A DNA stretch of 43,942 bases, taken from positions 1-43,942 of the forward strand of contig JAFZVN010000018.1 in the NCBI GenBank assembly GCA_017617805.1. Reading direction: 5' to 3'. This stretch comes from Bacteroidaceae bacterium. Lineage in GTDB: Bacteria > Bacteroidota > Bacteroidia > Bacteroidales > Bacteroidaceae. The position numbers were made by a program, and so were the translations under genes. Below are positions 24 through 40,350 of this stretch, in pieces. Within the stretch, counting starts at the first letter, position 1. Every line of letters starts with the position of its first letter. Below the pieces are notes generated by a model, which was not told the origin of the DNA, did not search any database, and worked only from the letters and a program-made list of their open reading frames with translations.

Positions 24-1844
24 CGCGATGTGGAAGATAACGTAAACGATAACCTTAACGCTAACTCTCAACTGTCAATTGTCAACTCTCACCTGTCAAC
101 TGAACGAACCTTGTACATCTTTGACGCTTGCATGCGTGAGGCTGGCTTGCAGGAGAATGACTTGGTGGAGGAAGGTGGCAGGCACAATGCGCTGAAGAGC
201 ATCCTGAGTGTGGGAGCCACACAGCTGCTGACCAAAGAGGAACTGATTGGGGTGTTGCAGGTGAGGATGGCGGCTAACTGGCAGGATGCGAACATCCAGA
301 CGCTGGTGAATGACTTCTATCAGAAATATACGGATTCGAGCCAGAAGATGACCCAGTTCCAACGCAAGGTGTTTGCCAAGAGCAGAAAGCTTAACCTTAA
401 CGATAACCTTAACCTTGACGAATCCTCGCCGGATGGTCTCCCCATTACGGGGGAGATGTCCGAAGGACAGAGAGGGTCTTCTTTTACGAAAATGCCTATG
501 GGCATCAAAGACTCCATCGAGGCGGTAGGTCCTCAACTGGAAATGCCTGTCTTGACCGCCATCTGTCCATGCATCGGGGCATTGGCTACGGGTGTGGTGC
601 TGGATGTGCATGCTCAGAAGAAAGGGCTGAACCTGATCTCCTACATCGCTGGCGACTTCGCCTCGGGCAAGGGAAGCATAGACCCTGTGGTGGAGGCTTG
701 GATGAGCGAGGTGATTGCACTCGACAAGATGTATCAGCAGCAGGAGGAGGAATACCGCAACAAGAAAAAGGCGGCGAAGAACAAGAAGGAGCAGCCAGAG
801 GAACCCAATCTGCCTGTGCGCTACATCACCCTGAACAACACGGTGGCGAAGCTGGCTGAACGTCTGGCGAACACCGAAGGGAAACATGCCTTCTCGTTCA
901 CGCCTGAAGCGGACACGGTGGCGCAGAAGTGGCGTTCGGTCATGAGCGACTTCTCGGTGATGTTGCGACAGAGCTACGACGGCAGCAAGTTCGAAAGGGA
1001 AGCCAAGAGCGTGGAGGCGGTGAACGTGCACATCGACAAGCTGTTGTGGAATGTATGCATGTGTGGAACTCCCGATGCCCTTTATCGTGTGGTCTCAAAC
1101 TATACCGACGGATTTCAGAGCCGAATCGCCATCGCCCGCACGCCCGACAACACCTTCGCACCCTTGGAGGAGAAGCCTCATGTGTTGACCGATCGTCAGA
1201 GGAGCCGCATCCAGCAGATTGCCCACTTGCTGCCGCTGATGCAAGGGGAGGTGGTGCTGCCTAAACTGGAGGCGAAGGGTCGTGAGTGGCTGGAGAAAAT
1301 TCGCTTGGAGACGATGAAGAACGATGATCGTACCAAGGCTCGCCAGCGCATCCGCGTGTGTGTGACCGCCCAGCGAATGACCTGCTGCGTGATGCTCTGC
1401 AAGGTGTGCGAGATGCTCATCCAGAAGCATGGTCTCAACGGCGCGGAAACCATCTTGAAGCAATGCCCCAACCGATGGAAAGAAGTGCTCCTGAAGGCGC
1501 AGACACCTCAGATGCTGGAAATCTATGACGTGATCGCTGACTCGCTCCTGGAAAATGCCCTCTTCTTCTTCCGCGACCGCATTGAGAACGCTTTCAGCAG
1601 CCGTGACTATGCAGGTTGTCTGAGCGGCGAACGTACGAAACGCGGCAAGAACGACTCGATCTATGAGCGACTGGATGTGCAGTTCACCTTCGAGCAGGCC
1701 ATGCAGCACAGCGTGGCTGTCAAAGGGGCAGGAGTGACTCGCAACACCGTGATACAGATGTTGAAGAACTGGCAAAGACAGGGGCTTATCGTACAAACGG
1801 AAACAGGAAAGTTTCGGAAGATCGAGAGTGTCTTGAAAGTTTAG
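3..1844 (+). CDS. DUF3987-type protein, 5' end outside or uncertain
   Basis: The C-terminal part resembles the DUF3987 proteins that Bacteroidales carry beside VirE/primase-like genes. A segment starting near TLYIFDACMREAG has the EEGGRHNAL and MSVGA-like pattern of the linker that precedes DUF3987. It is followed by a P-loop-like GDFASGKGS, a Lys/Glu-rich charged stretch, and a C-terminal winged-helix-like end (TRNTVIQMLKNW). The frame is open to the left window edge. The first usable start inside is a GTG at 30, so the true N-terminus may lie outside; relatives usually have more N-terminal sequence. The N-terminal peptide NVNDNLNANSQLSIVNSH and an internal segment encoded at 385-482 come from short repeats (separate entries), not from the family. 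The small P5-like gene follows 41 bp downstream. The function is unproven; a role in DNA metabolism of mobile elements is an inference. Confidence 0.6.
   Translation, partial: PPKGEGLRDVEDNVNDNLNANSQLSIVNSHLSTERTLYIFDACMREAGLQENDLVEEGGRHNALKSILSVGATQLLTKEELIGVLQVRMAANWQDANIQTLVNDFYQKYTDSSQKMTQFQRKVFAKSRKLNLNDNLNLDESSPDGLPITGEMSEGQRGSSFTKMPMGIKDSIEAVGPQLEMPVLTAICPCIGALATGVVLDVHAQKKGLNLISYIAGDFASGKGSIDPVVEAWMSEVIALDKMYQQQEEEYRNKKKAAKNKKEQPEEPNLPVRYITLNNTVAKLAERLANTEGKHAFSFTPEADTVAQKWRSVMSDFSVMLRQSYDGSKFEREAKSVEAVNVHIDKLLWNVCMCGTPDALYRVVSNYTDGFQSRIAIARTPDNTFAPLEEKPHVLTDRQRSRIQQIAHLLPLMQGEVVLPKLEAKGREWLEKIRLETMKNDDRTKARQRIRVCVTAQRMTCCVMLCKVCEMLIQKHGLNGAETILKQCPNRWKEVLLKAQTPQMLEIYDVIADSLLENALFFFRDRIENAFSSRDYAGCLSGERTKRGKNDSIYERLDVQFTFEQAMQHSVAVKGAGVTRNTVIQMLKNWQRQGLIVQTETGKFRKIESVLKV
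385..482. repeat. In-frame composite repeat inside the DUF3987 gene
   Basis: Two repeat types lie side by side in an open frame. First comes an array of TTAACC/TTAACG hexamers (about 385-418), coding KLNLNDNLNL. Then comes a palindromic element (about 431-482) containing GGTCTCCCCATTACGGGG and ending GAGAGGGTCTT. The second part matches the element lying after the HU-like gene at 21246-21287, which has the same CCCCATTACGGG core and the same GAGAGGGTCTT end. It adds a low-complexity loop before the DUF3987 core. Confidence 0.65.
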
Positions 1845-1885
1845 CATGTCATGATTGTCAAAGTCATTATTGTCATTTTCAAAAT

Positions 1886-2329
1886 ATGAAAAATAAATAT
1901 TTACCGAGGGGTTTGCGCAATCGCAACCCCCTCAACATCAGAAAGAGTGACCAGCTTTGGGCAGGTCAGACAGGGAATGACGGTGCGTTCTGCATCTTCC
2001 TGAGTAATGAATATGGCTATAGGGCGGCCTTCCGCATCCTGAAGACCTACAATGTGAAGTACCACATCTATTCGGTGCGAGAAATCATCAGCAGGTGGGC
2101 ACCTCCGAATGATGGGAACAACACACGTGCCTACATCGAGAGAGTCTGTGCCCTCTCAGGACTCCGAGAGACGGACATCATCGTGGTGCAGCCCAGTGAT
2201 GGCGACCCTTACAATGTCGTGATGCTAGTATGGGCAATGGCGATTGTGGAGAATGGTGAGAGGTACAAGAAACTCATTGATAGAGGCGAAATCTGCAAAG
2301 GATATGACCTCGCCTTTGGACAAAGATAA
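1886..2329 (+). CDS. P5-like structural/lytic protein (phage endolysin-type)
   Basis: A 147-aa protein. The N-terminal pattern RGLRNRNPLNIRKS-x3-W, a following F-L-x-x-EYGYRAAFRIL, then IISRWAPPNDGNNTRAYIERV is that of the family often annotated as structural protein P5 in Bacteroidales. These resemble phage muralytic proteins (G/RNxxNIR, then WAP-x-x-N-x-T-x-x-Y). No signal peptide is visible. It lies 41 bp after the DUF3987 gene on the same strand and converges on sprA, whose stop codon begins 4 bp away. In Bacteroidales, lysozyme- or amidase-like genes commonly sit beside DUF3987 genes, so this pair may be a small conserved mobile or prophage-derived unit. The enzymatic activity is inferred, not shown. 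Confidence 0.65.
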   Translation: MKNKYLPRGLRNRNPLNIRKSDQLWAGQTGNDGAFCIFLSNEYGYRAAFRILKTYNVKYHIYSVREIISRWAPPNDGNNTRAYIERVCALSGLRETDIIVVQPSDGDPYNVVMLVWAMAIVENGERYKKLIDRGEICKGYDLAFGQR

Positions 2330-2333
2330 TAAG

Positions 2334-5300
2334 TTACCTCACCAATGAGAATTTCATGCTGACACCGAAGTCGGCAGTGGTGGTGGGGTAGGCGGATTGG
2401 GAGACGAGGGGAACGTTGCGCTGCCAGTCGAAGAAGCCGGAGAGGGTGAGGAGGCGGCTGAAGGTATAGTCGGCCTGCATGGTGAGCTTGTAGGCAGTGG
2501 CTCCGCTGGTGGCTGTGGTGACAGCTGTCTGGATGTTGCGGTTGAGGGCGTTCTGCAGACGATAGGAGAAGTCGGCCTTGACGTTGAGGTCGTGGCTGAT
2601 GGTGCTTCGTGTGCGAGCGTTGGTGTTGCTGCTCTTGGTGTCCTCTTTCTTGTTTTTGGACTTCGACTTCGATTTGCGTGCTTCGTTGCTCTGGATGGAC
2701 TTGGCACCAAAGAGGTTGAGGTCTTTGATCTTATAGCCCAAGCCAATCACAATGTCGTTGGAGAAGTTCTCCGTGAGTGCCACGCTGGTCATGGAGAGGT
2801 TGAGCGTGCGGGTCTTGTTGTATTGCAGTTTGGCTGTGAGTCCGCTGTTGAAGGACATATCCACACCGATGAAAGGCGAGAAGGACTCGTTGATGCTGAC
2901 GGTGGACACGTTGTACATGGAGCTTGGGATGGGGTTGCCGGTGGTCACATTGCTGATGAAGCCCCAGTCACCCATGTATTCCATGAAGTTGGAGTAGGAG
3001 TTGTAGGCGCCAACGGAGTAGATGCTCTTGTAGGCGTGGTTGATGTTGAACGACTTGACGTGGTCGCCCAACCAAGGGATGAGTTTGGTCAGACCTGCAT
3101 ACTTCACACTCCAGTTTGGCATCAGACGTTTGAGGGCTGGGAAAATGTCGAGCGGTGTGGATGCCGCATTTCCTCCGCAGTAGGCTGAGAGGAAGGCGGG
3201 TACCATCACATCGGCTGAGTAGAGTTCCACACCTCCATTTTCTGGGTTGTAGGCCTTGCCTGCCCATTCTGTGCCAGCACTCTTCGGATAGGTGGCCGAT
3301 GCGTATTTCTGCTCCAGACGCTCTTGGATGACGGACATGTTCTTGAGGAACTTGTCGAAGTGCTTGGAGTGGTAGTTGTTGTTGATGTTGCCACCTGACT
3401 CGAAGGCTGAACCGAAGGAGATGACGGTCATGGAGAATGAACCGCTCTGGGTGGTAGGCATGCCGTCGTACATGAACTGGATGCGCTTCGACTTGTTCAC
3501 GGTGCGTACAGCGTCGAGGTCAATCTTGAAGTCCTTGAAGGGTTCGAGGGTCGCCTTCAGTTGCAGGTCTTCCATCGCTGCTGTGCTGGCAGGGGTGGTG
3601 ATGTTGGAGTCGTTCTGCATCAGCCATCCGTTGCGTGCAGCTTGATCGATATAACCATCACCCACAGCACCAAAGGCAAAGCCCAAGCCTGGCGAGAGGA
3701 CGCCATTCACGTGCTTCTGTCCGAAGGCGTCGCCCACTTCGGTGCGGAAGCCTGGCAGGGTGAGGGAGTAGGTGTTGCGATAGGAGATGCTGGCTGTTCG
3801 CAGGGTCATGAGACCACGAGCGAACACCTGTGCGGTCTTGTACCACGTGAGGTTTTCGAGCGGCTGCTTTGCCACCACGTTAATCTTCACAGGGATGCTG
3901 TCGTGGTTCTTCACCTTGATGGTGTTGGCATCGACCTTCTTGTATTTCAGTTTGTAGGTCTTGCCCTCGGCGGTGGTGGCACGTACCACGAGACGTTTGG
4001 AGTTCTGTCCGTGCTTCACTTCCACATCGGTGGAGTCGTTGAGTGCCACTTCCTTTGAGAATCCTTTGCTCTTCTTGTCGTCTTTCGCTTTCGCGTTCTT
4101 GTCGTTTTGAGCCTTGGCATTCTTATCGTTCTTGTTGTTCTTCTGGTCTTGTCCCTTGGCATCCTCCGTGCCCTCAGCCTCCTTCTTGTCCTTCGAGGTC
4201 TTTGTGTCCTTGGCAGCAGTCTTGGCATTCTTGCTGGCTGTGGTTCGGCTGTTGCTCTTCTTCGTGTTGCCAGAGAGTCGCTTCTCGGTATCTGCCAAGA
4301 ACTTCCACTTCTTGTAGAGGGTCTCGAAGTTGAGTTGACCGTTCAGGTTGACGGTACGCTGGGTATTGACGGTGTGGCCCAATGAGGTGCCATCTTCGAG
4401 TTCTGTGCCTCGTGTCCAGTTGTAGTTGGCATTGTAGGAACCATCGGCTGTCATCCAGTCGAAGAGCGGAATCTTGTTGAGCGGCACTTGGTAGGAGCCT
4501 GTGAAGGTGCTGCGATAGGTGAGTGGACGTCCAAACGATTTGAGGCTTTGCTTCACAGAGTCTTTCCATGCGCTGTACTCGTCAGGATAGAGGTGTTTGT
4601 TCACCACCACGTAGGGTTCCTCAATCTCTGCATGGGTGGAAGAGGTCCATGACATCTTCATGGCCTTGAAAATGTCCCAACGCACGGTGAGGTCACGATT
4701 CCAGAGGAACTGATCAGAGAAGGTGACAGGCAGTTTGGTGCTGCTGTTGTCGATGTCACGCTCCTGGAACTCGTAGTAGTTGCGTGTGATGTCGGTGTTG
4801 AACGAGACACTCTGAGGCAACCACTGCAGGTTTTGTGCCTTCACGATGTCGAGCCACTTCGACTTGCCCTTCAGGTTCTTGAATGGTTCGAGCGGCTTGT
4901 ACTTGGGCGAATAGTTGTAGGAGAGGTTGAACTTCCAATTCTCCTCATTCTCATAGACGGTGGTCTCACCAGTCTTGTAACGCTGGCTGTAGCTGTAGCT
5001 GACGGTGAAGTTGGCTGGGTCGAAAGGCAGCGGCTTGCGGCTCTGCACACCACTTCTCCAGTTGCTCAGCGAGAAGTTCTTGTTCTTCACCACACTTTCT
5101 GTCAGGTTGCTGAGCGAGTCACGTGCGGCCTTGTTCTCACACTCGTCGAGGGCATCCTTCAGAAGCATGTCGGTGTCGAACGGATTGTATTTGGGCGAAA
5201 TCTTCTGCCAAGAATAAGAGTAGTAGAACGGCAGGTTCATCTTCCACTTCTCAGGGAAGAACTTGCCTAACTCAATCTGGGTGGTGATGCCCCATTCGTA

Positions 5301-8300
5301 GAGGTTGTCGTTGCGACGTTCAGTCACACCTTCCTCAATGCCACCAAAACCTGCTGTCTCCACGTGACCAGTCACATTGACAGAACCGAGGTCGGACAAC
5401 TGCACGTTCAGGTTTCCTTGTGCAGCCCAACCGCCTTCGTTGGAGTAATCCTGCATGCGCAGCTCATTCACCCACACTTCCACGCTACCTGTGCGACGTC
5501 CGTTGTTGCGCACACCAATCATCATGGTCTTCACCTCGCCCAAAGACGGATTGCCGACAATGCTGATCTTGTTGTTGGGACGGTTCTCGTCGTAGATGTA
5601 GTAGAGTTGGGTGTAGCTGGCTGTGCCATTGGCTCTGGCCTTGTTGCGCTCGTGCTTCAGGTTGGTGAAGGCTGAGAAGTCGATGTCGAGCATGTTCTCC
5701 TCTGGCCACACCGCCTTACAACCTTGTGTGGTGTAGGTGTCGTAGTGACCCGCAGGTGTGAGTTTGAGTGGAATCTCATACTCGTAGTAGTTGCTCTTGT
5801 AGTCGCTACCGATGCGGAAGAAGATGCTCATCTGGTTGTCTTGCAGTTCTGTGTCGCTGGTTGGCGCATTGGCATGAACGAACATCTGCAAGTGCTTGTA
5901 GTGACGTAGGTCTTTGTTCAGATTCTTATAGACGGCACGTGCATCGCCTGTGGCAAGGTTCTCCACCGTCAGCGCCAACGCTGCCTCGTTCTGCTGGGTG
6001 AGCTGAGGCTGTGAGGGGTCGAGAATACGGGTGATGCCAGGAGGCAATACATAGTTGACAGGGGTCTTGTCGTTGTGCTCCTCGATGTTGACGGAGGAAG
6101 GAACCATGCTGCCGCTCACGCTGGGCTTGTCGCCAGAGAAGAGTTGCTGGGTATAGTTGCGCCATTCACCCTTCACCAAGTCGAGATTGGCCAGACGTAC
6201 CACGACAGGCTCTTCGAAGCCCGTCATGTACATACGCATGAAGCGGATGCTGGAGAAGTCGCTGATGCTGCCTTCCTTGCCTTCGTATTCTTCCACAGGA
6301 ATGCGGAACTGGTACCAGGTGGCTTTCTCCTTGTTGCCATTGCGGAGCGACACACTGGTCTCTCTCGAACCCACAATGAAGTTTCTGCCCACAACCATAT
6401 CCTCTGGTCGGAGGCTGACATGATACTCGAAGAAGTTCTCGTACTCGTTCATCGTGTAGTCGGAATTGACATCCTCTGCATCAGGTGTGCTCTTGTAGGC
6501 GGTTGAGTAACTTTCTTGTGACTCGCTGGTGTTGGGCGAGTTGCCTTCAGGCGAGTTGATGCGCTTGTAGCGGTCGAGGATGGACACACGGTTGGCATCG
6601 AAATCGCTGCCTCTGAAGTAGTGGTAGTCATCGCCTGCAGGGTCAGCGTAGATGGAGTCGTAAACAGCTTGGCTCACCTTGTCCTTGATGGCGTTCAGGT
6701 AGTCGGCATAGATGCCATAGGTACGTTCGTCGGCATCAGCAAGACCATTCAAACCAATATCTTGGCGTTGACGGGCACCACTCTCGTTGGAGAAGGAATA
6801 AACCACAGACTTCTCGCTGGGCACACGTCCCCAAGTGGTTTCTGTGTAGGTGGAGGCACTGTTGACGGGCATACCGCTCTCGTAGAACTTCTTGCCATCC
6901 TTCAGCACATCCTCGCTGATGTCGCCCAAGTTGATGTAGAAGTCACCTCCAAAACGATGGTCGTTCTTTGAGTAGATGAAGGGATCGAGCATCCAGAACT
7001 CGATGTACTGCACATTGCTGCTCTCGAAGTCGCTCTGGTCAATCTTTCGCATCATACCGCCCCACCGTTGCTTGGGATTGTTCAGGTGACCTTTCTCATC
7101 TACATCGGTGTCGAGGTTGTAAGGACCACGCTCGTTGGGATAGTAAGCCATATTGAGGATGGACAGCGTGTTGCTCTCGCCCATGTTGGTGTCGCGATTG
7201 GGATAGACCTCACGTACATAAACCTCACGCACATAGTGGTTGGAGAGCTGGTCGAGGTCGTTCTTGATGTGGGCAGGTGTGAGCGATGAGGAACGGCGTG
7301 TGAAGAGAGGCTCGATGTTGTACCAAGCCAAGCGAGCACGGTTGTAGCCGTATTTCACATCGTTCGACAGTTTGCCGTATTGCAGATGGGATGGGGTAGA
7401 GGAGAGCGTCCATTCCTTCGGATTGCTTACGTCAAGGGCTGTTCGTGTGTCTTCGAAGTCATCCAGATAGGAAGCGTTACCCTGTGTCTCCTTCGATTCG
7501 CCTGCCTTCAGTTGGGCATATTCGCCTGTGAAGGAAATGGAAGAAGGCGCACTGAGGTTGAGGAATGGCAGTTTGTCCAGCATGTTCGTCAACCACTGCG
7601 AGTTCTGTTTCCAGTTCATGTGGAATCCCCAGATGGTGTTGTTGAGCGGCTCTGAACCCATCGTCACTTTGGAGTAGAGCGGCTTCTCGCTCACCTTCAT
7701 CCAAGTACCTCCGATGTTGAAGTTCTTGGTGAAGTCGTATTCCCAGTTCACACCCATCATCGTCTTGCGCATGAAAGTGATGGCATCCACATTTTCGAGG
7801 CTCACGCTCACATTCGTTCCTGCATCGATGATGCTCTGGTTGATGATGGTCACATCGCCTGTAGAATAGCTGACGGTATAGTCGGTGTTTTCTGTCAGGG
7901 TCACACCACCAGCCGTCACAATGACAGAACCCTGGGGAATGTAGCCATCCGACACATGGATGACACTTCCGCTGGAGGCCTTGTATTCACCCACCAGCGA
8001 GAATTTGTTCTTTTCGGCAATCTGCTTGGCGACGGTCTTGGTCGAGTCGTACAGCTCGTCGTAGCAGTATTTGTCAGCAATGGCGTCATTGCCTATCTTC
8101 TGTCGCAGCCAATCACCAAAGGGTTCCACCACAGGGAAGATGACACGTCCTGTCTGTGACTGAATCGTGTAGCCTTCGATGAAGTCGAATCGACCGTTTG
8201 GATTGGTCTTGTCGTTGTCGTCCAAGCGGTCGAGGTTCAGCATCTTCAGCAAGGTGGTCTGCTTGAACTTCTCCTCTGGAATGTAGTTGAGGTTCACACC

Positions 8301-9932: not shown

Positions 9933-10037
9933 ACCGTTCTGCTGTCTTGAGAGGCTCCAAGAGCCCGTTCATACATACTTCTAAGATAAGAAACGTAAAA
10001 AACCTCACATTATTGTATAAATATCGTTTTTTTGCAC

Positions 10038-10045
10038 TACCTTTG
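10038..10045 (+). promoter_or_regulatory. Bacteroidetes -7 element of the radical-SAM gene
   Basis: TACCTTTG fits the TAnnTTTG consensus and lies 19 bp before the chosen ATG at 10065. A weak -33 candidate, ATTG, is at 10012-10015. This position rules out the longer upstream start at 10032. Confidence 0.6.
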
Positions 10046-10064
10046 CCAACGAAAAAGAGATACG

Positions 10065-11369: not shown

Positions 11370-11388
11370 CTAGTAAAATGAGCATGAG

Positions 11389-12171
11389 ATGTTAGTGTAT
11401 ATCTTCGATAGAACCCTTGACGGACTCCTCTCCGCTGTCTTCGACGCCTTTTCACTGCATCAGCAACCTGAGATGCTGGTGGGGAAGGGTGAACCTCTGC
11501 CTTTGTTCTGTGATGAAGTGCATGAGGTGGAAACGGCTGATGACAGGGCACAACGAGTGTGGGCTGGATTGGAGAAACGGGTGTCGAAGGAAGCCATGAG
11601 GTTGTTGTCGGTGAGTTATCTGTCAGAATTGTCGGAATTGGACACGCCTCTGTTTCATTATATATGTAAGGTGTTTCAACAGACAAAGGGAGCACGGAGC
11701 ATAGAGAGGAACTTCTCTGACCCCGATGTGCTGGCTGTGACAAACATCTTCAGAAAGGTGATGCACGAGCGATTGAGGATGATGCAGTTTGTTCGTTTCC
11801 AGAAGACGAAGGACGGGACTTATCTGGGTGTGGTGTCGCCTGATCACAATGTGCTGCCTTTGGTGGTGGCGCATTTTCAGGATCGGTTTGGTGACCAGCC
11901 TTGGCTCCTGTATGATGCCAAGCGTCGCTATGGTTTCTACTATGACCAACAGGAAGTGACACGCATCACGTTTCAGGATGAGGATACCATACCCTTCGAC
12001 CTTGATAGTGGTAAACTGAATGACGAGGTGTTGAGCGAGGATGATAAACTCTTTCAGGAACTCTGGCGCACCTACTTCAAGGCCATCTGCATCCGCGAAC
12101 GCATGAATCCGAAGAAACAACTGAACGATATGCCTCGTCGCTATTGGAAATATATGACAGAGAAGCAATGA
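11389..12171 (+). CDS. DUF4130 protein, partner of the radical SAM enzyme (TIGR03915 type)
   Basis: A 260-aa protein opening with the family signature (I/V)FDRTLDGLLSAVFDAF. It continues with LSELDTPLFHYICKVF, DPDVLAVTNIFRKVMHERLRMMQFVRF and a C-terminal NPKKQLNDMPRRYWKYMTE. These blocks match DUF4130/TIGR03915, described as a probable DNA metabolism protein; a similar domain is fused to uracil-DNA-glycosylase-like proteins of the UdgX type in other bacteria. It follows the radical-SAM gene by 19 bp, so the two are co-transcribed. The biochemical role is not known. A repeat tract and then vsr follow. Confidence 0.83.
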   Translation: MLVYIFDRTLDGLLSAVFDAFSLHQQPEMLVGKGEPLPLFCDEVHEVETADDRAQRVWAGLEKRVSKEAMRLLSVSYLSELSELDTPLFHYICKVFQQTKGARSIERNFSDPDVLAVTNIFRKVMHERLRMMQFVRFQKTKDGTYLGVVSPDHNVLPLVVAHFQDRFGDQPWLLYDAKRRYGFYYDQQEVTRITFQDEDTIPFDLDSGKLNDEVLSEDDKLFQELWRTYFKAICIRERMNPKKQLNDMPRRYWKYMTEKQ

Positions 12172-12173
12172 GG

Positions 12174-12233
12174 GTTTAGAGTTTAGGGCTTAGAGTTTAG
12201 AGTTAAGGTTAGGGTTGACGTTAAGGTTAAAAA
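12174..12233. repeat. Short tandem repeats between DUF4130 and vsr
   Basis: The whole spacer is made of TTTAGAG/TTTAGGG heptamers followed by TTAAGGTTAGGGTT-like hexamers, ending directly before the vsr ATG. The same units occur inside carA (15014-15052) and, as TTAACC, inside the DUF3987 gene. Confidence 0.75.
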
Positions 12234-12234
12234 A

Positions 12235-12744
12235 ATGGCAGATAAGATGACTCCCCAGCAGCGCAGTAATTGCATGCGCAGGATCAGGTCGAAGAACACG
12301 CGACCTGAGATGCTGGTGCGCCGTTTCCTGTTCAGTCATGGTTTCCGTTATCGCATTCATGCCAAGACCTTGCCGGGCACTCCAGACTTGGCGATTGTTG
12401 GCCTTCGTACATGCATCTTCATCAATGGCTGTTTCTGGCATGGACATGAGGGTTGTTCCATGTATCGGACACCTCAAACCCACGTGGACTTCTGGACACA
12501 TAAGATACTTCGCAATCAGCAGCGTGACCAAGAAAATCGTTTGGCGCTGAAGGAGCAAGGCTGGCATGTGGTGGAGATTTGGGAGTGTCAACTCAAGCCC
12601 AAAGAAAGGGAGAAGACCTTGCAGGGCCTTCTCCGTACCTTAAATTATATTGTCCTTGAAAATCGAGGAGCCAAAGTCACTTATCATTTTGATGAAGACG
12701 AGGAGATGAGCCTTGCCGCAGAGTTCCCTGCCGAAGAGAACTGA
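12235..12744 (+). CDS. vsr: Very-short-patch mismatch endonuclease
   Basis: A 169-aa Vsr protein, a nicking endonuclease that acts 5' of the T in T:G mismatches arising from 5-methylcytosine deamination. The start MADKMTPQQRSNCMRRIRSK is typical. The metal-binding aspartate is D51 in LPGTPDL, and the active-site/zinc region is C66, H69, H71 and C74 in NGCFWHGHEGC. WECQLKPKEREKTLQ follows, and the C-terminal tail DEDEEMSLAAEF looks like the family's Bacteroidales tail, so the gene seems complete. No cytosine methyltransferase gene lies beside it, although Vsr usually accompanies one. It converges on the truncated carB, with 24 bp between stop codons. Confidence 0.93.
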   Translation: MADKMTPQQRSNCMRRIRSKNTRPEMLVRRFLFSHGFRYRIHAKTLPGTPDLAIVGLRTCIFINGCFWHGHEGCSMYRTPQTHVDFWTHKILRNQQRDQENRLALKEQGWHVVEIWECQLKPKEREKTLQGLLRTLNYIVLENRGAKVTYHFDEDEEMSLAAEFPAEEN

Positions 12745-12768
12745 TCTGATGGCAAAGCCATTCTCGAT

Positions 12769-14466
12769 TTACACATACGACAGATACAAGTAATTCGTTT
12801 GGGCTGGATATTCGGCAGCGAGGGTGTCGATTTGGTTGACCACAGGAACGATGCCGAGTTCCTTGCGCCACTTACGCACGATGAGACCTGCCTCCTCCAT
12901 GTTCATGTCGGCCTCAAGACCGATGGCACGAGCAATCTGGAAGTCGGAGAAACCATATATTTTGGCTTCGTGCAGCAACTCCGCAAACTCTGGTGCCTCG
13001 ATGTATTCCAGCAGCTCTGTGGGTTCCATGTATTCAATCATCTCTGAGAAATGCACGAACTCCTTCAGTCGATCGTTGATGCCGACGATGTGCTTCAGCT
13101 TCTGCAAGAACCAGCGATCAATCTTCGTCAGTTCGTGAATCTGTTCAATGCCATAACCCAACTGCATAGCTTTCGCAATGGCGAAGATACGCGTATCAGT
13201 CGGTTCGTGGAGGGCATTGGCGATGTCTGGGATCTTGATTTCGTGGTTATCGACAAAGCCGTGCATACCTTGACCAATCATACGCAGACCTTTCTGGAGT
13301 GCTTCCTCGAAGGTGCGACCGATGGCCATCACCTCGCCCACGCTCTTCATCGACGAACCCAACTGACGCTTCACCCCATGGAACTTCGTCAAGTCCCAAC
13401 GAGGAATCTTCACAACCACATAGTCAAGGGCAGGTTCGAAGAAGGCACTCGTGGTCTTGGTGACGGAGTTCTTCAGTTCGAAGAGTCCATAGCCGAGACC
13501 AAGTTTAGCTGCGACGAAGGCAAGTGGATAACCTGTGGCTTTCGATGCCAATGCTGACGAACGGCTGAGTCGGGCATTGACTTCGATGACACGATAATCT
13601 TCCGACTCAGGATCGAGGGCATACTGCACGTTGCACTCGCCGACGATGCCGATATGGCGGATGATCTTGATAGCCAGCGCACGAAGTTTATGATATTCGG
13701 AGTTGGTGAGTGTCTGCGAAGGAGCCACCACTATCGACTCGCCTGTGTGAATGCCGAGTGGGTCGAAGTTCTCCATGTTGCAGACCGTGATGCAGTTGTC
13801 GTAGCAGTCACGCACCACCTCGTATTCGATTTCCTTCCAGCCTTTCAGCGACTTCTCCACCAACACCTGGGGAGAGAACGAAAAGGCTTCCTCGGCCTGC
13901 GACATGAGTTCCTCGTCGTTGTCGCAGAAACCAGAACCAAGACCACCCAGAGCGTATGCGGCTCTCAAGATCACAGGGAATCCCAGTTCATGTGCCGCTT
14001 TCTTCACTTCTTCTACCGTCGAACAGGCCTCGCTCTTGATGGTCTTCACACCAATTTCGTCAAGACGCTTCACGAACAGGTCGCGGTCTTCGGTGTCGAT
14101 GATGGCTTGCACAGGAGTGCCCAAGACCTTCACATGATATTTCTCCAGCACACCCTTCTCATACAGTTCCACACCGCAGTTCAGCGCCGTCTGTCCGCCA
14201 AACGAGAGCAAGATGCCATCAGGACGTTCCTTCTCGATGATGCGTTCCACGAATTCGGCCTTCACAGGCTGGAAATACACCGTGTCTGCCACGCCTTGCG
14301 AGGTCTGCACCGTAGCCACGTTGGGGTTGATGAGCACCGACTGGATGCCCTCCTCCTTCAGCGCCTTCAGTGCCTGGGCACCTGAATAGTCGAACTCGCC
14401 TGCCTGGCCAATCTTCAGGGCGCCGCTGCCCAAGAGCAGCACTTTCTTGATATTCTTCTCCATCAT
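12769..14466 (-). CDS. carB: Carbamoyl-phosphate synthase large subunit, N-terminal half only
   Basis: CarB normally has about 1070 residues: two ATP-grasp halves plus an allosteric domain. This gene has 565 codons. It covers the carboxyphosphate (first) ATP-grasp half ([60 protein letters not shown]) and the oligomerisation segment ([26 protein letters not shown]). It stops in TNYLYLSYV just where the second half should begin with Y-N-G. After the TAA at 12769-12771 the frame reads IENGFAIRS, which could be a short decayed remnant of the normal continuation. No second half is present, because vsr occupies the next DNA. It overlaps carA by 4 nt (ATGA). Isolated CPS halves of some CPSases can dimerise and work, but a damaged gene, an assembly fault or a second half elsewhere are all possible. 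Confidence 0.85.
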
Positions 14467-15656
14467 CCTAACATTTTTACGAATTCGTCAAACAAAAACT
14501 CTGTGTCAACGGGGCCTGAGCATGCCTCTGGATGGAACTGAGCCGACATCCAGGGATGGGTCTTGTGTCGGATGCCCTCGTTCGAGCCGTCGTTCATATT
14601 CACGAAGAGCGGTTCCCAATCGGCAGGTAACGTCTTGTCATCCACCGCATAACCATGATTCTGCGAAGTGATGAAGCATCGGTTCGTGCCCACTTCACGT
14701 ACTGGCTGATTGTGCGAACGATGGCCGTATTTCAATTTGTAGGTCTTGGCACCAGCGGCACGAGCCAGCAGTTGGTTGCCCAGGCAGATGCCCATGCAGG
14801 GACGAACGTTCTCATTGCTCAGGAACGCTCTGATATGCGCTACCGTCGCCTCGCAACGTTCAGGGTCGCCAGGGCCATTGGCGAGGAAAAGTCCATCGAA
14901 GTCCAGCGTGTTGAAGTCATAATCCCAAGGCACGCGAATCACTTCCACACCCCGTCGGATGAGACATCGGATGATGTTCGCCTTCACGCCGCAATCAACC
15001 AAGACTACCGTCTTTAGTTTAGAGTTTAGAGTGTAGAGTTTAGAGTTTGCTATCGCTGTCATGTCTGGTTTGTAGGTGATGACCTCCTTACAGCTCACTT
15101 TCTCCACCCAATTCACACTTCCGTAGTCTTGAGTCGTGGCAGTGGTTTTGTTTGTTGCGATGCCATCACAACAGACGGAACTACTGCCAATCACCACACG
15201 CCCCATCATCACGCCGTGCTCTCTCAGTACCTGCGTCAGTCTTCTTGTGTCGATGCCCGTGATGCCAGGCACTTGCTCGCGTTTCAGCCACGATGCCAGC
15301 GATTCTTTCGCATTCCAATGCGAATACTGCTCGCTGTAGTCGGTCACAATCAACGCCTTGGCATGGATCCTGTCACTTTCCATGAACAGGGGCAGGCTGT
15401 TCGCTCCTACCCCTGTGTCTGGCACGCCGTAATTTCCAATCAGCGGAAATGTCGTCACCAATATCTGACCTGCATAACTTGGGTCTGTCAGGCTCTCTGG
15501 ATAGCCCGTCATGGCGGTGTTGAACACCACTTCGCCCACCGTCTCTGTCAAGCCTGAACCCTGTTCGCCTGTCTGCTGCCCTTCGTAGCCAAACGACCAG
15601 CCGCAGAACTCCGAACCATCGTCAAGAATCAGTTTTGCTTCTCTCTTTCTGTTCAT
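14463..15656 (-). CDS. carA: Carbamoyl-phosphate synthase small (glutaminase) subunit
   Basis: A 397-aa glutamine amidotransferase subunit that releases ammonia from glutamine for carbamoyl phosphate synthesis (pyrimidines and arginine). The N-terminal CPSase domain ([20 protein letters not shown]) is followed by a class I amidotransferase domain with nucleophile C291 ([10 protein letters not shown]) and H375/E377 (FHPEA). Residues about 197-216 ([15 protein letters not shown] and neighbours), between SCKEVITY and [14 protein letters not shown], are encoded by a TTTAGAG repeat and have no counterpart that I know of in the family. It lies 18 bp after asnB and overlaps carB by 4 nt, so asnB-carA-carB is one transcription unit. 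Confidence 0.93.
15014..15052. repeat. In-frame TTTAGAG tandem repeat within carA
   Basis: A run of TTTAGAG-like heptamers in an unbroken frame codes [14 protein letters not shown]. The same unit fills the spacer before vsr. Confidence 0.75.
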
Positions 15657-15674
15657 CTTTATTATTAATGTATC

Positions 15675-17387
15675 TCAATATGCCTGTTCATGTACTCCCT
15701 TCACGGCACGACCGCTGGGGTCATTCATGTTCTTGAACGCTTCGTCCCACTCCAAGGCGATGGCCGTTGAGCATGCCACAGATGCCTCCTGGTTCACGCT
15801 CCGTGCGGCAGATGCGCTGGGGAAATGCTCCTCGAAGATGCTGCGGTAGTAGTATTCCTCCTTGCAGAGTGGTGGATTGATAGGGAATCGTTCGGCCGCA
15901 TGTGCCATCTGCTCGTCGCTGACCGCCTCCGATGTAATCTTCTTCAGGGTATCAATCCACGAATAGCCCACGCCGTCGCTGAACTGCTCCTTCTGACGCC
16001 ATGCGATGCTCTCGGGCAGCATGTTGGCAAAACCTTCACGCACCACACCCTTCTCAATCGTCTTCCCTGGACACATCTTCAATGCAGGATCGATGCGCAT
16101 GGCGATGTCGAGGAACTCCTTGTCGAGGAACGGCACACGACCCTCGATGCCCCAAGCCATCAGCGACTTGTTGGCACGCAGACAGTCGTAGAAATGCAGT
16201 TTGCCCAACTTGCGCACAGTTTCCTCATGGAACGCTTTCGCATCGGGCGCCTTATGGAAGTAGAGATAGCCGCCGAAAATCTCGTCGGCACCTTCGCCGC
16301 TGAGCACCATCTTGATACCCATCGAGCGGATGACGCGTGCCAACAGGTACATCGGCGTGGAGGCACGGATGGTCGTCACGTCGTAAGTCTCGATATGGTA
16401 GATGACGTCGCGGATGGCGTCAAGACCTTCCTGAATCGTATAGTTCACCTCGTGATGCACTGTGCCGATATGCTCCGCCACCTCGCGAGCCTTCGCCAAG
16501 TCGGGAGCACCCTTCAGACCCACGGCGAACGAGTGCAGACGAGGCCACCAAGCATCGTGCTCATCGTTCGTCTCGATACGCTTGGCAGCATAGAGCTTCG
16601 CGATGGCCGACACCACCGACGAATCCAGTCCGCCCGAGAGCAAAACACCGTATGGCACATCGCTCATCAGCTGACGCTTCACCGCCGCCATCAGACCTTC
16701 TTTCACCAGCTGCACAGCCTCCTTGCGGTCGCTGGTTGACCACTTCATCCCCTCATATTGCATCCAGTCGCGCTGATACCAACGTTTAAGGCCCAACTTT
16801 TCATTCTTCAATTTTTCAATTTTACTCGTCGCATAATGTCCTGGCAGGAAAGGCTCATACTCGCACTGACCCTCCAAGGCCTTCAGTTCACTCGCCACAT
16901 AGATGGTGCCGTCTTGGTCGTGTCCTATATATAAAGGTATGACGCCGATAGGGTCGCGCGCCACAAGGAAATCGTCCGTCGCTGAGTCGTAGAGCACAAA
17001 CGAGAAGATGCCGTTCAGTTCGTCGAGCATCTCCTCCATGGGACGTCCCTGCGCCACAGCCTCCTGATACAGCGCCAGGATGACCTCGCAGTCCGAACCC
17101 GTCTGGAAATCATACTGTCCAGCGAACCGGCGGCGAATCTCCTGATGGTTGTATATCTCACCATTCACCGCCAGCACCACCTTGCCATCCCTCGAATACA
17201 GGGGCTGACCGCCCGAAAGCGGGTCAACGATGGCCAGACGCTCATGCGCCAGCACCGCCCGTTCACTGCTATACACCCCGCTCCAGTCGGGACCGCGATG
17301 CCGAATCTTCGCCGACATCTTCAACGCCTGCTCACGCTTCTGGTGGGCATCGCCTTTCATTTTGAGTATTCCTACAAATCCGCACAT
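15675..17387 (-). CDS. asnB: Asparagine synthase (glutamine-hydrolysing)
   Basis: A 570-aa AsnB. It makes asparagine from aspartate, ATP and glutamine. The N-terminal class II glutaminase domain begins MCGFVGI with catalytic C2, and RLAIVDP, NGEIYNH and SDCEVI follow. The synthetase domain has the pyrophosphate loop SGGLDSS (251-257) and the GEGADEIFGGY motif. Residues about 188-201 (SKIEKLKNEKLGLK), before RWYQRDW, are repeat-encoded and appear to be an insertion in the linker between the two domains. The gene has its own promoter in the 145-bp gap after purF and leads into carA 18 bp on. Confidence 0.95.
   Translation of the reverse strand: MCGFVGILKMKGDAHQKREQALKMSAKIRHRGPDWSGVYSSERAVLAHERLAIVDPLSGGQPLYSRDGKVVLAVNGEIYNHQEIRRRFAGQYDFQTGSDCEVILALYQEAVAQGRPMEEMLDELNGIFSFVLYDSATDDFLVARDPIGVIPLYIGHDQDGTIYVASELKALEGQCEYEPFLPGHYATSKIEKLKNEKLGLKRWYQRDWMQYEGMKWSTSDRKEAVQLVKEGLMAAVKRQLMSDVPYGVLLSGGLDSSVVSAIAKLYAAKRIETNDEHDAWWPRLHSFAVGLKGAPDLAKAREVAEHIGTVHHEVNYTIQEGLDAIRDVIYHIETYDVTTIRASTPMYLLARVIRSMGIKMVLSGEGADEIFGGYLYFHKAPDAKAFHEETVRKLGKLHFYDCLRANKSLMAWGIEGRVPFLDKEFLDIAMRIDPALKMCPGKTIEKGVVREGFANMLPESIAWRQKEQFSDGVGYSWIDTLKKITSEAVSDEQMAHAAERFPINPPLCKEEYYYRSIFEEHFPSASAARSVNQEASVACSTAIALEWDEAFKNMNDPSGRAVKGVHEQAY
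16801..16825. repeat. In-frame CTTCAATTTTTCAA repeat within asnB
   Basis: TCATTCTTCAATTTTTCAAT codes the peptide KIEKLKNEK on the minus strand. It is the same repeat type as 19055-19086 in purF (units of TTGAAGGA, TTGAAGAG). Confidence 0.6.
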
Positions 17388-17417
17388 GTCATTTTGCTTT
17401 TATGTTCGTGTTTTAAT

Positions 17418-17524
17418 AATCAAATTGTTTTCGATTTTTTGAAATCGGTTGCAAAATTACAAACTTTTCAAATATCTCACAAGCAATTTGATAAAAAATA
17501 CTTATTTTTACGAGCATTTTGTTT
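17418..17524 (-). promoter_or_regulatory. asnB promoter region, duplicated upstream of pyrG
   Basis: The minus strand carries the -7 element TAATTTTG (17452-17459 on plus) with CTTG as a -33 candidate 20 bp upstream. All 107 bp align without a gap to 20977-21083 upstream of pyrG, including an identical 30-bp core at 17442-17471. Confidence 0.75.
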
Positions 17525-17532
17525 GTTTTTTA

Positions 17533-19359
17533 TCACAGTTGCAACTTCAGCACCTGCTCGACGTAGTTGACGAAGGCTGCGTTGCAGAGACGGATGCCGC
17601 CAGGGGTGGGATAGTGACCGGTGAAGTACCAGTCGCCAGGATGGTTGGGACAGGCGTGGTGCAGACCTTCGATGCTTTGATAGACGAGTTCGATGGGAGC
17701 CGTCATGCCCTCGGGACGAAGCATCTCGACAATCTTCTGGTTGATCTCATCGACGGTGAAGGGGGCGTAGATGGCGCGAACGTGATTCACGCAGTTGACA
17801 GTTGATAGTTGACAGTTTGCAGCCGATTTGCAATTGCGGTAGGTTTCTGCAATGAGGTTTTGCATGCCACGTTCCTGGATGAGGGCGATGGCGGCACGGA
17901 AGGCGCAGAGTTCCTCGAGGTGGGACATGTCGATGCCGTAGTAGTCGGGGTAGCGAATCTGGGGAGAGGAGGATACCATGACAATCTTCTTGGGATGGAG
18001 ACGGTCGAGAATCTTGAAGATGCTCTCCTTCAGCGTCGTGCCTCGAACGATGGAGTCGTCGATGATGACGAGATTGTCCTCGTAGGGTGTGAGCGAGCCG
18101 TAGCTGATGTCATATACGTGGGCGGCGAGGTCGTTGCGTTCGGCTCCTTCGGCGATGAAGGTGCGGAGCTTGATGTCTTTCCAGACTACTTTCTCGATGC
18201 GCACGGCCCCCTCCAACCTCCCCCGAAGGAGGAGGCTCTGTCTCACACCGTCGGTCATGCCATGGAATGCGACCTCGGCGGTGTTGGGAATATAAGAGAA
18301 GACGGTGTGGGCCACATCGCCATCGATGGCTTGCATGATGGCTGGCGTGAGTTGCTCACCAAGGCGTTTGCGCTCTAAATAGATGTCGCGGTCGGAACCT
18401 CGGCTGAAGTAGATGCGTTCGAAGGAACAGGCACTGAGTTGCTGCGTCGGAAGGATTTGTTCCTTGCGGATCTCGCCACTCTTGTGGACGATGAGCGACT
18501 GTCCGGGCATCAGCTCCTGAATGTCATCGACCTGCAAATCGAAGGTGGTCTGAATGACGGGACGCTCGGAAGCCACGACCACCACCTCGTCATCTTGATA
18601 GTAGAAAGCGGGACGGATGCCCCAAGGGTCACGCACGGCGAACATTTCGCCCGAGCCTGTCAGTCCGCACATCACGTAGCCGCCGTCGTAGTGGCTCATC
18701 GTGGTCTTCAGCACGTTCGCCATCTCTACATTGTTTTCTATATAAGTGGTGATGTCGGTGCCCTCAAGTCCCTGCTCCTTGGCCTCGACAAAGAGGCGCT
18801 CCACCTCGCGGTCGAGACGATGACCCATCAGTTCGAGCGTGATGTAGGCGTCGCCATAGATGCGGGGAGATTGCCCCTGTTCGGTCAGGAACTGAAAGAC
18901 CTCCTCGATGTTGGTCATGTTGAAGTTGCCGCACAGACAGAGGTTCTTGGCTCGCCAGTTGTTCCTCCTCAGAAACGGATGGACGTATTGCAAACCGCTC
19001 TTGCCTGTGGTCGAGTAGCGCAGATGCCCCATGTAGAGTTGTCCGGCGAAGGGAGAATTGAAGGATTGAAGAGTTGAAGCATTGAGGTTCTTCTCTGCTT
19101 CTTTGATGCGATTAAATATGATGGTAATAGCATCCTTGCCCAACGCTTTCTCGCGGAACATATATTCCTCGCCTGCCGGAGCATCGAGGTTGACACATGC
19201 CACGCCAGCACCTTCCTGGCCACGGTTGTGCTGCTTCTCCATCAGCAGATAGAGCTTGTTCAGTCCCCAGCGCCATGTGCCGTACTTTCTCTCGTAATAG
19301 TCCAGTGGCTTCAGCAGGCGAATCATCGCCACGCCACACTCATGCTTCAGTTGTTCCAT
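17533..19359 (-). CDS. purF: Amidophosphoribosyltransferase-type glutamine amidotransferase
   Basis: A 608-aa PurF-family protein (first step of purine synthesis: PRPP plus glutamine). It starts MEQLKHECGVAM, so C8 would become the N-terminal nucleophile after removal of a short propeptide. HNRGQEGAG, MGHLRYSTTGKSG and RDPWGIRPAF are class II glutaminase blocks, and NLVIIDDSIVRGTT (about 430-440) is the PRPP-binding motif. The ATG at 19359 overlaps the end of pyrG by 20 nt; a longer in-frame extension through pyrG has no family match. It belongs to the longer Bacteroidetes PurF form. Three variable regions are repeat-encoded: about residues 92-102 (NASTLQSFNS), 375-386 (QSLLLRGRLEGA, where relatives have a longer helical segment) and 514-522 (NCQLSTVN). 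The core motifs are intact. Confidence 0.9.
   Translation of the reverse strand: MEQLKHECGVAMIRLLKPLDYYERKYGTWRWGLNKLYLLMEKQHNRGQEGAGVACVNLDAPAGEEYMFREKALGKDAITIIFNRIKEAEKNLNASTLQSFNSPFAGQLYMGHLRYSTTGKSGLQYVHPFLRRNNWRAKNLCLCGNFNMTNIEEVFQFLTEQGQSPRIYGDAYITLELMGHRLDREVERLFVEAKEQGLEGTDITTYIENNVEMANVLKTTMSHYDGGYVMCGLTGSGEMFAVRDPWGIRPAFYYQDDEVVVVASERPVIQTTFDLQVDDIQELMPGQSLIVHKSGEIRKEQILPTQQLSACSFERIYFSRGSDRDIYLERKRLGEQLTPAIMQAIDGDVAHTVFSYIPNTAEVAFHGMTDGVRQSLLLRGRLEGAVRIEKVVWKDIKLRTFIAEGAERNDLAAHVYDISYGSLTPYEDNLVIIDDSIVRGTTLKESIFKILDRLHPKKIVMVSSSPQIRYPDYYGIDMSHLEELCAFRAAIALIQERGMQNLIAETYRNCKSAANCQLSTVNCVNHVRAIYAPFTVDEINQKIVEMLRPEGMTAPIELVYQSIEGLHHACPNHPGDWYFTGHYPTPGGIRLCNAAFVNYVEQVLKLQL
17794..17818. 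repeat. In-frame GTTGACAGTTGATA repeat within purF
   Basis: Units of GTTGACA/GTTGATA code NCQLSTVNC on the minus strand. The same repeat in the other orientation (TCAACTGTCAATTG) opens the DUF3987 gene around 66-103. Confidence 0.7.
18205..18237. repeat. C/G-rich palindromic repeat inserted in frame in purF
   Basis: CCTCCCCCGAAGGAGGAGG forms a hairpin core and is preceded by GGCCCCCTCCAA. It codes SLLLRGRLEGA. It is related to the copy at the left window edge. Confidence 0.65.
19055..19086. repeat. In-frame TTGAAGGA/TTGAAGAG repeat within purF
   Basis: ATTGAAGGATTGAAGAG followed by TTGAAGCATTGAG codes LNASTLQSFNS on the minus strand. It replaces a loop just before the conserved PFAGQLYMGHLRYST block. 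Confidence 0.65.
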
Positions 19360-40056: not shown

Positions 40057-40350
40057 CTAAGCACTTGATAAATACACTACATATCTCTCTAATATTCGAA
40101 TCATAGCAAGGGGGTAGCAAGGGGGTAGTAAGGGGGTAGCAAGGGAGATGGAAGGGAGATGGAAGGGGGAACGGCTCCTTCTGATAGCAGTGGGCTAGTG
40201 TACGGATAGTGTAGCGCTATCGTAGGGATATCCAAGCTATATCGTAGCATAGGCGTAGCGTAGATGTAGCATAGGCGGAGCTTATACCCTCGGAGTGGCT
40301 CGGCAAAAATTTGCGCCATAGTTATACAAAAAGATTTCTATAGTTAAGCA
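40040..40350. repeat. 24-bp direct repeats flanking a repeat-rich block
   Basis: CAAAAAGATTTCTATA followed by ACTAAGCA (40040-40063, the 3' end of the exporter gene) recurs as CAAAAAGATTTCTATA followed by GTTAAGCA (40327-40350), 22 of 24 bases alike. The 263 bp between them hold the 11-bp repeats and no gene. Confidence 0.65.
40104..40277. repeat. Degenerate 11-bp tandem repeats, G-rich
   Basis: G runs begin at 40110, 40121, 40132, 40143, 40154 and 40165, exactly every 11 bp (GGGGGTAGCAA, GGGGGTAGTAA, GGGAGATGGAA). A second cluster has GTAGC at 40244, 40255 and 40266, again 11 bp apart (GTAGCATAGGC, GTAGCGTAGAT). The first four G runs fit a G-quadruplex motif with 6-nt loops. Confidence 0.75.

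Follow-up and report, generated by a model that had tools for sequence, protein, structure and literature searches.

Rickettsia palindromic elements (RPEs) are described as several families of short palindromic repeats that occupy intergenic DNA as well as unrelated metabolic genes, where they are inserted in frame (PMC10969869). Heptamer direct repeats of the unit TAACTGA are recorded in Beggiatoaceae, cyanobacteria and five Bacteroidetes in the excerpts of PMC4679880 used here, which also cover the cyanobacterial STRR and LSSR repeats; such 7-nt tandem units are patchy by species and mostly intergenic, and the TAACTGA type has one dominant unit, with a minority of copies in open reading frames (ORFs), where stop codons limit orientation, and intragenic sets mostly at protein ends. 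REPs stand mostly downstream of genes and occasionally inside them, and REP/BIME and intrinsic terminator-like repeats form hairpins at gene ends and between convergent genes, according to the sections consulted of PMC3733652.

We compared these systems with the repeats of a 43,942-nt stretch of Bacteroidaceae DNA, here called the window, and of related genomes. The repeats include a palindromic element that, at about 120 nt and in many copies per genome, fits the roughly 150-bp palindromic repeat expected of an RPE. By description the two also share palindromic families, intergenic copies and in-frame insertion in unrelated metabolic genes, whole elements being found in pyrG and carA of relatives and not in the window. 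They differ in the Bacteroidales host, the tandem-heptamer arms and the frequency of half-copies; coding copies here often consist of an arm only, and no encoded peptide is conserved across families. The element resembles RPEs, but with slippage-prone heptamer arms. Like the TAACTGA-type repeats, tandem 7-nt units exceed chance (235 period-7 arrays in 1.53 Mb against 12 in Markov sequence, the most of any period tried), are patchy by species and are mostly intergenic, with stops limiting the orientation of the minority in ORFs. Unlike them, they comprise many related units, occupy internal sites of core enzymes and serve as hairpin arms; TAACTGA is absent from the 60 distinct exact units listed and is not the dominant unit. 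The element shares with REP/BIME and terminator-like repeats a hairpin structure at gene ends and between convergent genes, and differs in its length, its heptamer arms and a mismatched distribution of RAYT genes, a strong PF01797 match occurring in one of nine carriers. In literature searches judged mostly from listed entries and confined to openly available papers, we came across no description of these repeats from Prevotella.

Repeat arrays lie in frame in four genes of the window

A preliminary description of this DNA had placed short tandem repeats inside carA, asnB, purF and a DUF3987 gene and in the spacer before vsr, and Tandem Repeats Finder (TRF) detects arrays at all of these places, exact or displaced by a few bases, six intragenic and one in the spacer. 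All four genes stay open across their arrays, as had been claimed. At a threshold of at least 16/21 lag identities, the window holds four period-7, four period-6 and one period-8 arrays, against means of 0.05, 0.1 and 0.03 (maximum 1 each) in 100 order-3 Markov shuffles. The repeats are real, but the four fixed unit types first proposed are not: units vary inside each array, and 8-nt and 6-nt arrays occur besides 7-nt ones.

carA (14463..15656, minus strand; 397 aa) encodes the Pfam domains CPSase_sm_chain (residues 9-153) and GATase (218-395) and carries internal inserts in an alignment of 20 CarA proteins. Its heptamer array (15016..15048, minus; 7 nt, 4.7 copies) sits in the linker between the two domains and is of ACTCTAA type on the coding strand, one unit, CTCTAC, sidestepping an in-frame TAA. 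In a search of array borders for the core octamer GCGGTAGC, which stands before many arrays, the adjoining GCGATAGC (15049..15056, minus) differed from it by one mismatch. The neighbouring asnB (15675..17387, minus; 570 aa; Pfam Asn_synthase; 64 orthologues found) contains an 8-nt array (16794..16823, minus; 3.9 copies) encoding IEKLKNEKLG, an insert in the alignment that includes seven residues without counterpart in E. coli AsnB (1ct9). The product of purF (17533..19374, minus; 613 aa) matches only glutaminase families in Pfam, and weakly, and its identity is backed by its PDB relatives; the expected domains are found in the carA, asnB and DUF3987 products. Three alignment inserts in PurF correspond to a TCAACTG heptamer array in frame (17792..17817, minus; 7 nt, 3.7 copies; NCQLSTVNC), an 8-nt array (LNASTLQSFNSP; 19054..19085, minus; read by TRF as 8 or 16 nt) and a GC-rich in-frame segment encoding QSLLLRG (18220..18240, minus), from a region with a 31-nt match at L089:17408-17438.

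The DUF3987 gene (30..1844, plus; Pfam DUF3987), whose ORF starts 30 nt from the window's edge so that its N terminus may be incomplete, contains a mixed hexamer/heptamer array (36..102, plus; TRF 36-65, 12 nt, and 63-102, 7 nt, 5.7 copies) and a TTAACC/TTAACG hexamer array (390..416, plus; 6 nt, 4.5 copies). A paralogue at L097 is 55/69 identical with nine gap columns across the first array, against 347/369 in the flanks, and is longer by 6 bases at the second. Other palindromic families besides the heptamer hairpin element, passed over in the preliminary description, also sit in frame: a GC-rich palindromic repeat in the same gene (429..482, plus) is 54/54 identical at L093:7357-7410. An array assigned to neither strand (12171..12230; TRF rows of 7, 14, 12 and 6 nt) fills the gap between a DUF4130 gene and vsr (12235..12744, plus; Pfam Vsr). 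It had been ascribed to the same units as the genes, and TTTAGAG and TTAAGG types are indeed seen there, though not all four types.

Heptamer arrays are dispersed through the genome and its relatives

The suggestion that the process is genome-wide is borne out: over 442,542 bases of the window's own genome, window included, we counted 66 heptamer arrays, and 27 fall inside ORFs under a crude ORF model. Pfam domains were found in nine of ten such ORFs scanned, including ATP synthase gamma, Mur ligase, methyltransferase, UDP-galactopyranose mutase, GH88 and GH30. In 2.15 Mb of this genome we counted 22 copies of the pattern AGTTTAGAGTTTAG and none of its reversed control, a control that does turn up in 12 of the 61 genomes, with up to 16 copies; CAACTGTCAACTG occurs 52 times, its reversed form (55) being no true control as the unit reads the same backwards. 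Backward patterns are in general not independent controls for mirror-like heptamers. The units share a consensus skeleton, TSAANNN (for example TCAACTG, TGAAAAG and TAAACTC), and AANNNTS is matched by 26 of the 60 distinct heptamers, against a mean of 10.2 and a maximum of 17 in 200 shuffles. TSAANNN matches number 109 in the window's genome and 124 in that of L047, against 84 and 134 for the backward form, a poor control that is frequently as common as the forward one; in isolates they number 111 (complete genome of P. communis E15-14) and 175 (P. ruminicola KHT3), each against 9.

Across 81 loci, we found 63 heptamer arrays inside carA, pyrG, asnB, purF or carB. None has a stop in frame 0, whereas the other two frames contain stops in 44 and 43 arrays, counts that are conditioned on open ORFs and include a few weak arrays. 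Every codon that a perfect array would turn into an in-frame stop is altered (52/52), and mismatches are more frequent at these codons than elsewhere (0.42 versus 0.17). Among 119 internal inserts of at least 6 aa in the five genes, 36 have period 7, compared with 6/527 background windows. Most orthologues are shorter than the window's proteins (PurF, 613 aa against a commonest length of 579; AsnB, 570 against 554), and the PurF of KHT3 (L078) also carries a heptamer insert.

Relatives differ in presence, absence and copy number. A difference of 28 nt, equal to four units, separates isolates L069 and L074; sisters L058 and L030 carry a TCACCTC and a TCAATG array at the same carA site, and L019, a sister of L013, has none at the carA site. 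Near-identical stretches recur in different genes, carA and pyrG of L013 having stretches of 41 and 45 nt in common with one mismatch each, and L051 pyrG and L008 carA one of 43 nt, also with one mismatch. Distant orthologues with loops of the same length, or units at chance level, would have spoken against the proposal that repeats are seeded and then tolerated as protein segments; most orthologues proved shorter and the window and 1.53-Mb Markov comparisons both gave an excess. With sister sites empty or differently filled, stretches common to two genes, stop-free frames and an array in the CarA interdomain linker, that proposal is largely supported, and alignments suggest that the inserts occupy loops.

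A hairpin element with heptamer arms

Part of the process, overlooked in the preliminary description, is a defined hairpin element of about 120 nt, (TGAAAAG)n-AAATTTGCTACCGC-loop-GCGGTAGCAAATTT-(CTTTTCA)n, in which one heptamer family makes up the arms. It is carried by 9 of 61 genomes searched, all among the 37 of the genus, with a reversed control of 0; a strict core pattern gives 13 copies in the window's genome and 2-17 in the eight others. The 57-nt core, common to 33 copies, contains GTAG/CTAC and a hairpin, and 59 of the 66 arms match the heptamer consensus at 15/21 or better, against 23 of 20,000 random sequences. A model of the element matches inside L051 pyrG (E 1e-13), where a whole copy lies in frame, and inside L013 carA (E 7e-11), where a whole copy is split around a conserved CarA block. 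A search for a perfect full stem in the genomes of L013 and L008, whose genes hold halves, found none. Against the window the model gives no match at E <= 1; only arms or half-copies are seen there, and the carA array is tied to the element by the single near-match to the core octamer. Of 238 arrays, 33 have that octamer on the inner side and 5 on the outer, against a random value of 4.7; the arrays likely have several origins, because 205 lack it.

Element copies often stand at gene ends, between convergent genes, and two of them fold strongly (z -9.9 and -13.6); the window's carA array gives no folding signal (z -0.69). Covariation of the arms, considered as proof of a selected RNA, was weak by mirror identity (0.734 for own arms against 0.702 shuffled, a value reached in 14 of 1,000 shuffles), was not seen over the inner 29 nt (0.525 versus 0.592) and by RNAalifold gave a double change in just 1 of 22 pairs; we do not use it as such. 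Seven element loci gave nothing at the Rfam gathering threshold, only sub-threshold hairpin and snoRNA matches.

Repeat-built segments in everyday enzymes

In rumen Prevotella, everyday enzymes retain in-frame heptamers as added protein, and some of these heptamers are the arms of a hairpin that looks mobile. To our knowledge, most known cases of in-frame repeat elements in metabolic genes come from Rickettsia, which lives inside cells and is hard to manipulate. The same outcome is now seen in free-living gut bacteria, in dozens of related species and several isolates, with one linker occurring filled, empty and refilled; the rate at which repeats build protein segments thereby becomes directly countable. 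For annotation, the added residues of these enzymes should be recognized as derived from repeats.

Origin of the arrays

The best explanation, and probably the correct one, is that dispersed heptamer repeats, partly from the palindromic element, are copied, kept in frame and then reshaped. At least one heptamer family belongs to the element, two inward-facing arms flanking AAATTTGCTACCGC-loop-GCGGTAGCAAATTT. Presence/absence differences and near-identical pieces in different genes show that whole or half copies reach new places. Intergenic copies at gene ends may act as long hairpins resembling two-way terminators; intragenic copies would survive only in frame and stop-free, as observed, and, to judge from alignments, in variable linkers or loops. 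Comparison of relatives shows later gain and loss of whole units and rapid overwriting of unit types, for which slippage and gene conversion may be responsible. Through selection, the spread of repeats would thereby come to supply proteins with new segments.

A more specific version is possible but doubtful: a heptamer array with TTTGCTACCGC at its end would form a mobile half-palindrome, which a putative enzyme would insert as opposite-orientation pairs around any sequence, conserved enzyme blocks included, with selection repeatedly lengthening core-protein linkers. The conserved segment of L013 CarA would then act as the element's loop. Of 26 array pairs at most 160 bp apart, 14 are inverted, 5 direct and 7 neither. 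We dropped the reading of each gene's arm pair as one transposon copy, because amino-acid constraints at both sites could also fix orientation. In a comparison of 14 close pairs, no consistent target-site duplication was noticed.

Local slippage alone, in which an AT-rich linker seed expands and a 7-nt preference makes similar units recur, is an unlikely alternative to dispersal by copying. Isolates do differ by whole units, units vary and most arrays lack the border octamer; heptamers are moreover the commonest long-repeat class in most genomes, with slippage as the cause, in the work of Mrazek (2007) as cited in the excerpts of PMC4679880. Slippage does not supply the copying needed to explain how two genes of a single genome come to hold near-identical 41-45-nt pieces with a common border, why the octamer border is oriented or why 33 copies have the same core.

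Mobilization by a RAYT-type tyrosine transposase, as for GTAG-tagged REPs, is improbable. The element core contains GTAG/CTAC and a hairpin, and its placement is comparable to that of REPs downstream of and inside genes as outlined in PMC3733652. However, our PF01797 search of the 61 genomes gave strong matches (E <= 1e-15) in 5 of 37 genus genomes (G004, G014, G019, G024 and G033), several genomes being incomplete, and just G019 is among the nine carriers; the window's genome, 66% complete, has one weak partial match. We rejected RAYT as the mover on this mismatch.

We give still less credence to the idea that a defence reverse transcriptase resembling telomerase (DRT10, for instance) makes tandem repeats that then integrate into the chromosome. 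According to PMC12632851, DRT10 synthesizes tandem repeats of DNA that differ in motif and in length, which would fit. Among 12 hand-picked genomes, however, RVT_1 (PF00078) was not found in five (G000, G003, G022, G009 and G011), three or four of them rich in arrays, whereas array-poor G023 and G032 each have several matches; many unit types also stand side by side in one genome. Two 3.6-kb reverse transcriptase loci examined (L107 and L108, of 11) contained no tandem 6-8-mer with at least eight successive matches, and the distribution over the 12 genomes led us to reject this mover.

Least credible of all, the loops might be ancient protein parts that merely look repetitive, or artefacts of metagenome assembly given the window's fragmented genome, but the inserts are missing from most orthologues and the named isolates, P. 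ruminicola KHT3 and the completely sequenced P. communis E15-14, carry arrays genome-wide.

Heptamer arrays interrupt core enzymes in frame

TRF finds an array at each place where the preliminary description had reported repeats, the window's host genes (carA, asnB, purF and the DUF3987 gene) stay open through them as it had claimed, and the repeats exceed chance: the window holds four period-7 arrays, whereas Markov sequence averages 0.05. Its four unit types gave way to a heptamer family. In the best 80 of 592 candidate loci encoding a PurF relative, ORFs were assigned to PurF (80), PyrG (77), AsnB (64), CarA (36) and CarB (33). The window's PurF, whose relatives come from rumen Prevotella and Prevotellaceae, has 613 residues against a commonest length of 579, and its AsnB 570 against 554; in alignments with orthologues the extra residues fall between conserved blocks, as had been predicted.

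Across 81 PurF, 64 AsnB, 78 PyrG, 29 CarB and 20 CarA sequences (excluding longer CarA ORFs that were fused or ran on), we counted 119 internal inserts of at least 6 residues. Period 7 marks 36 of these and period 6 or 8 a further 8, and 17 have an exact inverted repeat of at least 9; 51 carry any of the three, compared with 6, 2, 5 and 13, respectively, of 527 background windows. Many of the other 68 are, by eye, GC-rich palindromes of other families. In-frame GC-rich palindromes of the CCCCTCC..GGAGGGG type, found in pyrG or asnB of loci L023, L026, L040, L052, L065 and L066, are a second insert family in core enzymes. The DUF3987 gene has an in-frame GC-rich palindromic repeat at window 429–482, identical at 54/54 positions to a second place in the same genome (L093:7357–7410); loci L082, L096 and L088 are named with it. 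Two more inserts in the window's CarA (residues about 26–37 and 159–176) are longer than in most relatives in the alignment.

Selection on arrays inside genes

The five genes hold 63 period-7 arrays in 81 loci, a few of them weak (carA 26, pyrG 16, asnB 10, purF 9, carB 2). Stops are absent from the reading frame and occur in 44 and 43 arrays in the other two. A perfect version of every array would place stops at 52 in-frame codons; each of the 52 is altered, as in the window's carA array (CTCTAA to CTCTAC), and mismatches per base reach 0.42 at would-be stop codons versus 0.17 elsewhere. Both sets of counts presuppose that the genes are open. Selection at the protein level acts on arrays inside genes. 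In the own-genome sample 27/66 arrays lie inside ORFs, although the crude ORF model used assigns 93% of sequence to coding, so non-coding sequence is strongly enriched. The ATP synthase gamma gene of L095 contains three arrays, at about residues 50–90 and 196–208. In a GH88 gene (L084:2185–3522), a TGAAAAG-type array in the first codons reads as the hydrophobic part of a signal peptide (MKKSLFHLSKEWIIRFFTFQFSLFTLCVSAQ).

A heptamer family of related units

In 1.53 Mb (80 loci, own-genome stretches and the window), 235 arrays have period 7, compared with 12 in Markov sequence, and the counts for periods 6, 8 and 9 are 78 versus 12, 86 versus 6 and 131 versus 16. Of the 60 different exact heptamers, 26 match the skeleton AANNNTS (equivalently TSAANNN), where shuffling gives a mean of 10.2 and at most 17. 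Among 238 looser arrays, 116 reach a fit of at least 0.75; after column permutation the mean is 59.9 and the maximum 70. The four-unit skeleton occurs in 168/295 Bacteroidia genomes, with a backward control often equally high, so this count shows heptamer arrays in general and not the skeleton alone. The skeleton exceeds the control in nine of ten named genomes, and the complete P. communis E15-14 chromosome has 111 matches against 9. AGTTTAGAGTTTAG is present in 22/37 genomes of the genus and 1/24 others, its backward control being non-zero in 12/61. A 7-nt TAAATTG/TAAATCG array followed by TCAAAT recurs across several species (L013, L015, L049, L067, L072, L082, L095 and L098), possibly as a leader motif common to them.

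Some arrays form the arms of a hairpin element

Of 26 neighbouring array pairs, 14 are inverted, 5 direct and 7 neither. The octamer GCGGTAGC, allowing one mismatch, lies at the inner side of 33/238 arrays, where 4.7 are expected at random, and on the outer side of 5, where 4.2 are expected; 20 of its 46 exact copies are within 30 nt of an array. The pattern AAWTTTGCTACCGCN{8,38}GCGGTAGCAAAWTT occurs in 9/61 genomes, all of this genus (control 0), with 13 copies in the window's own genome, an assembly of 2,145,273 bases in 92 contigs that is 66% complete, and 2–17 in other carriers. Exactly 57 nt is the length of 23 of the 33 distinct copies read with flanks. Although the arms are not part of the search pattern, 59/66 agree with the heptamer consensus in at least 15 of 21 positions (random 23/20,000), both arms doing so in 28/33 copies; fold z for two copies is −9.9 and −13.6. 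Nine of 18 copies lie between convergent genes, 5 between tandem and 2 between divergent genes, and 2 at an edge, against 20/130 convergent own-genome gaps; intergenic copies are probably terminator-like.

A covariance model built from 32 copies, run on the window and 80 loci, matches pyrG of L051 (E 1e-13) and carA of L013 (E 7e-11), and more weakly two intergenic-looking places (L001, E 0.005; L052, E 0.23). It has no match in the window; its 11 places in the own-genome sample all lie elsewhere. At the inner end of the window's carA array stands GCGATAGC, one mismatch from the octamer. In L013 carA, a conserved CarA block sits between the element's halves, which share 41 nt (left) and 45 nt (right) with their counterparts in L013 pyrG, one mismatch each; a 43-nt stretch of L051 pyrG recurs in L008 carA with a single mismatch. 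Searched for a perfect stem, the L013 and L008 genomes have none, P. communis has six, whose loops are unrelated, and the L051 genome has one.

As candidate movers, a full-length Y1 transposase is found in 5/37 genomes of the genus, one of which carries the element, and RVT_1 is missing from the window's genome, G003, G022, G009 and G011 among 12 searched, absences that incomplete assemblies weaken alike. Passages of PMC4679880 describe heptamer direct repeats, chiefly intergenic, those of a review (PMC10969869) in-frame palindromic elements in Rickettsia, and those of PMC3733652 REPs; our literature searches found no account of these repeats in Prevotella. In kind this is ordinary selfish-repeat biology; in form it is new and unusually rich.

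Arrays turn over between close relatives

The carA linker is short and native in some species; in others it is filled by arrays, of which there are at least six heptamer types. On a PurF+PyrG tree (FastTree, no support values shown), sisters L013 and L019 differ by presence of the carA array, in L013, and L058 and L030 by its unit (TCACCTC versus TCAATG). Among 14 close pairs, a 36-nt pyrG insert in L013 is missing from L008, as are 33-nt asnB and 42-nt carA inserts of L068 from L070, and one intergenic array is four units (28 nt) longer in one X. ruminicola isolate than in another. Against a DUF3987 paralogue (L097), flanks are 94.0% identical (347/369), the first array is 79.7% identical (55/69) with 9 gap columns, and the hexamer array has 6 gap columns. 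Separately, a 72-nt palindromic insert distinguishes isolates L063 and L069, and TRF reports an 11-nt tandem repeat (TAGCAAGGGGG) at window 40104–40167, directly 3′ of an MFS-like gene.
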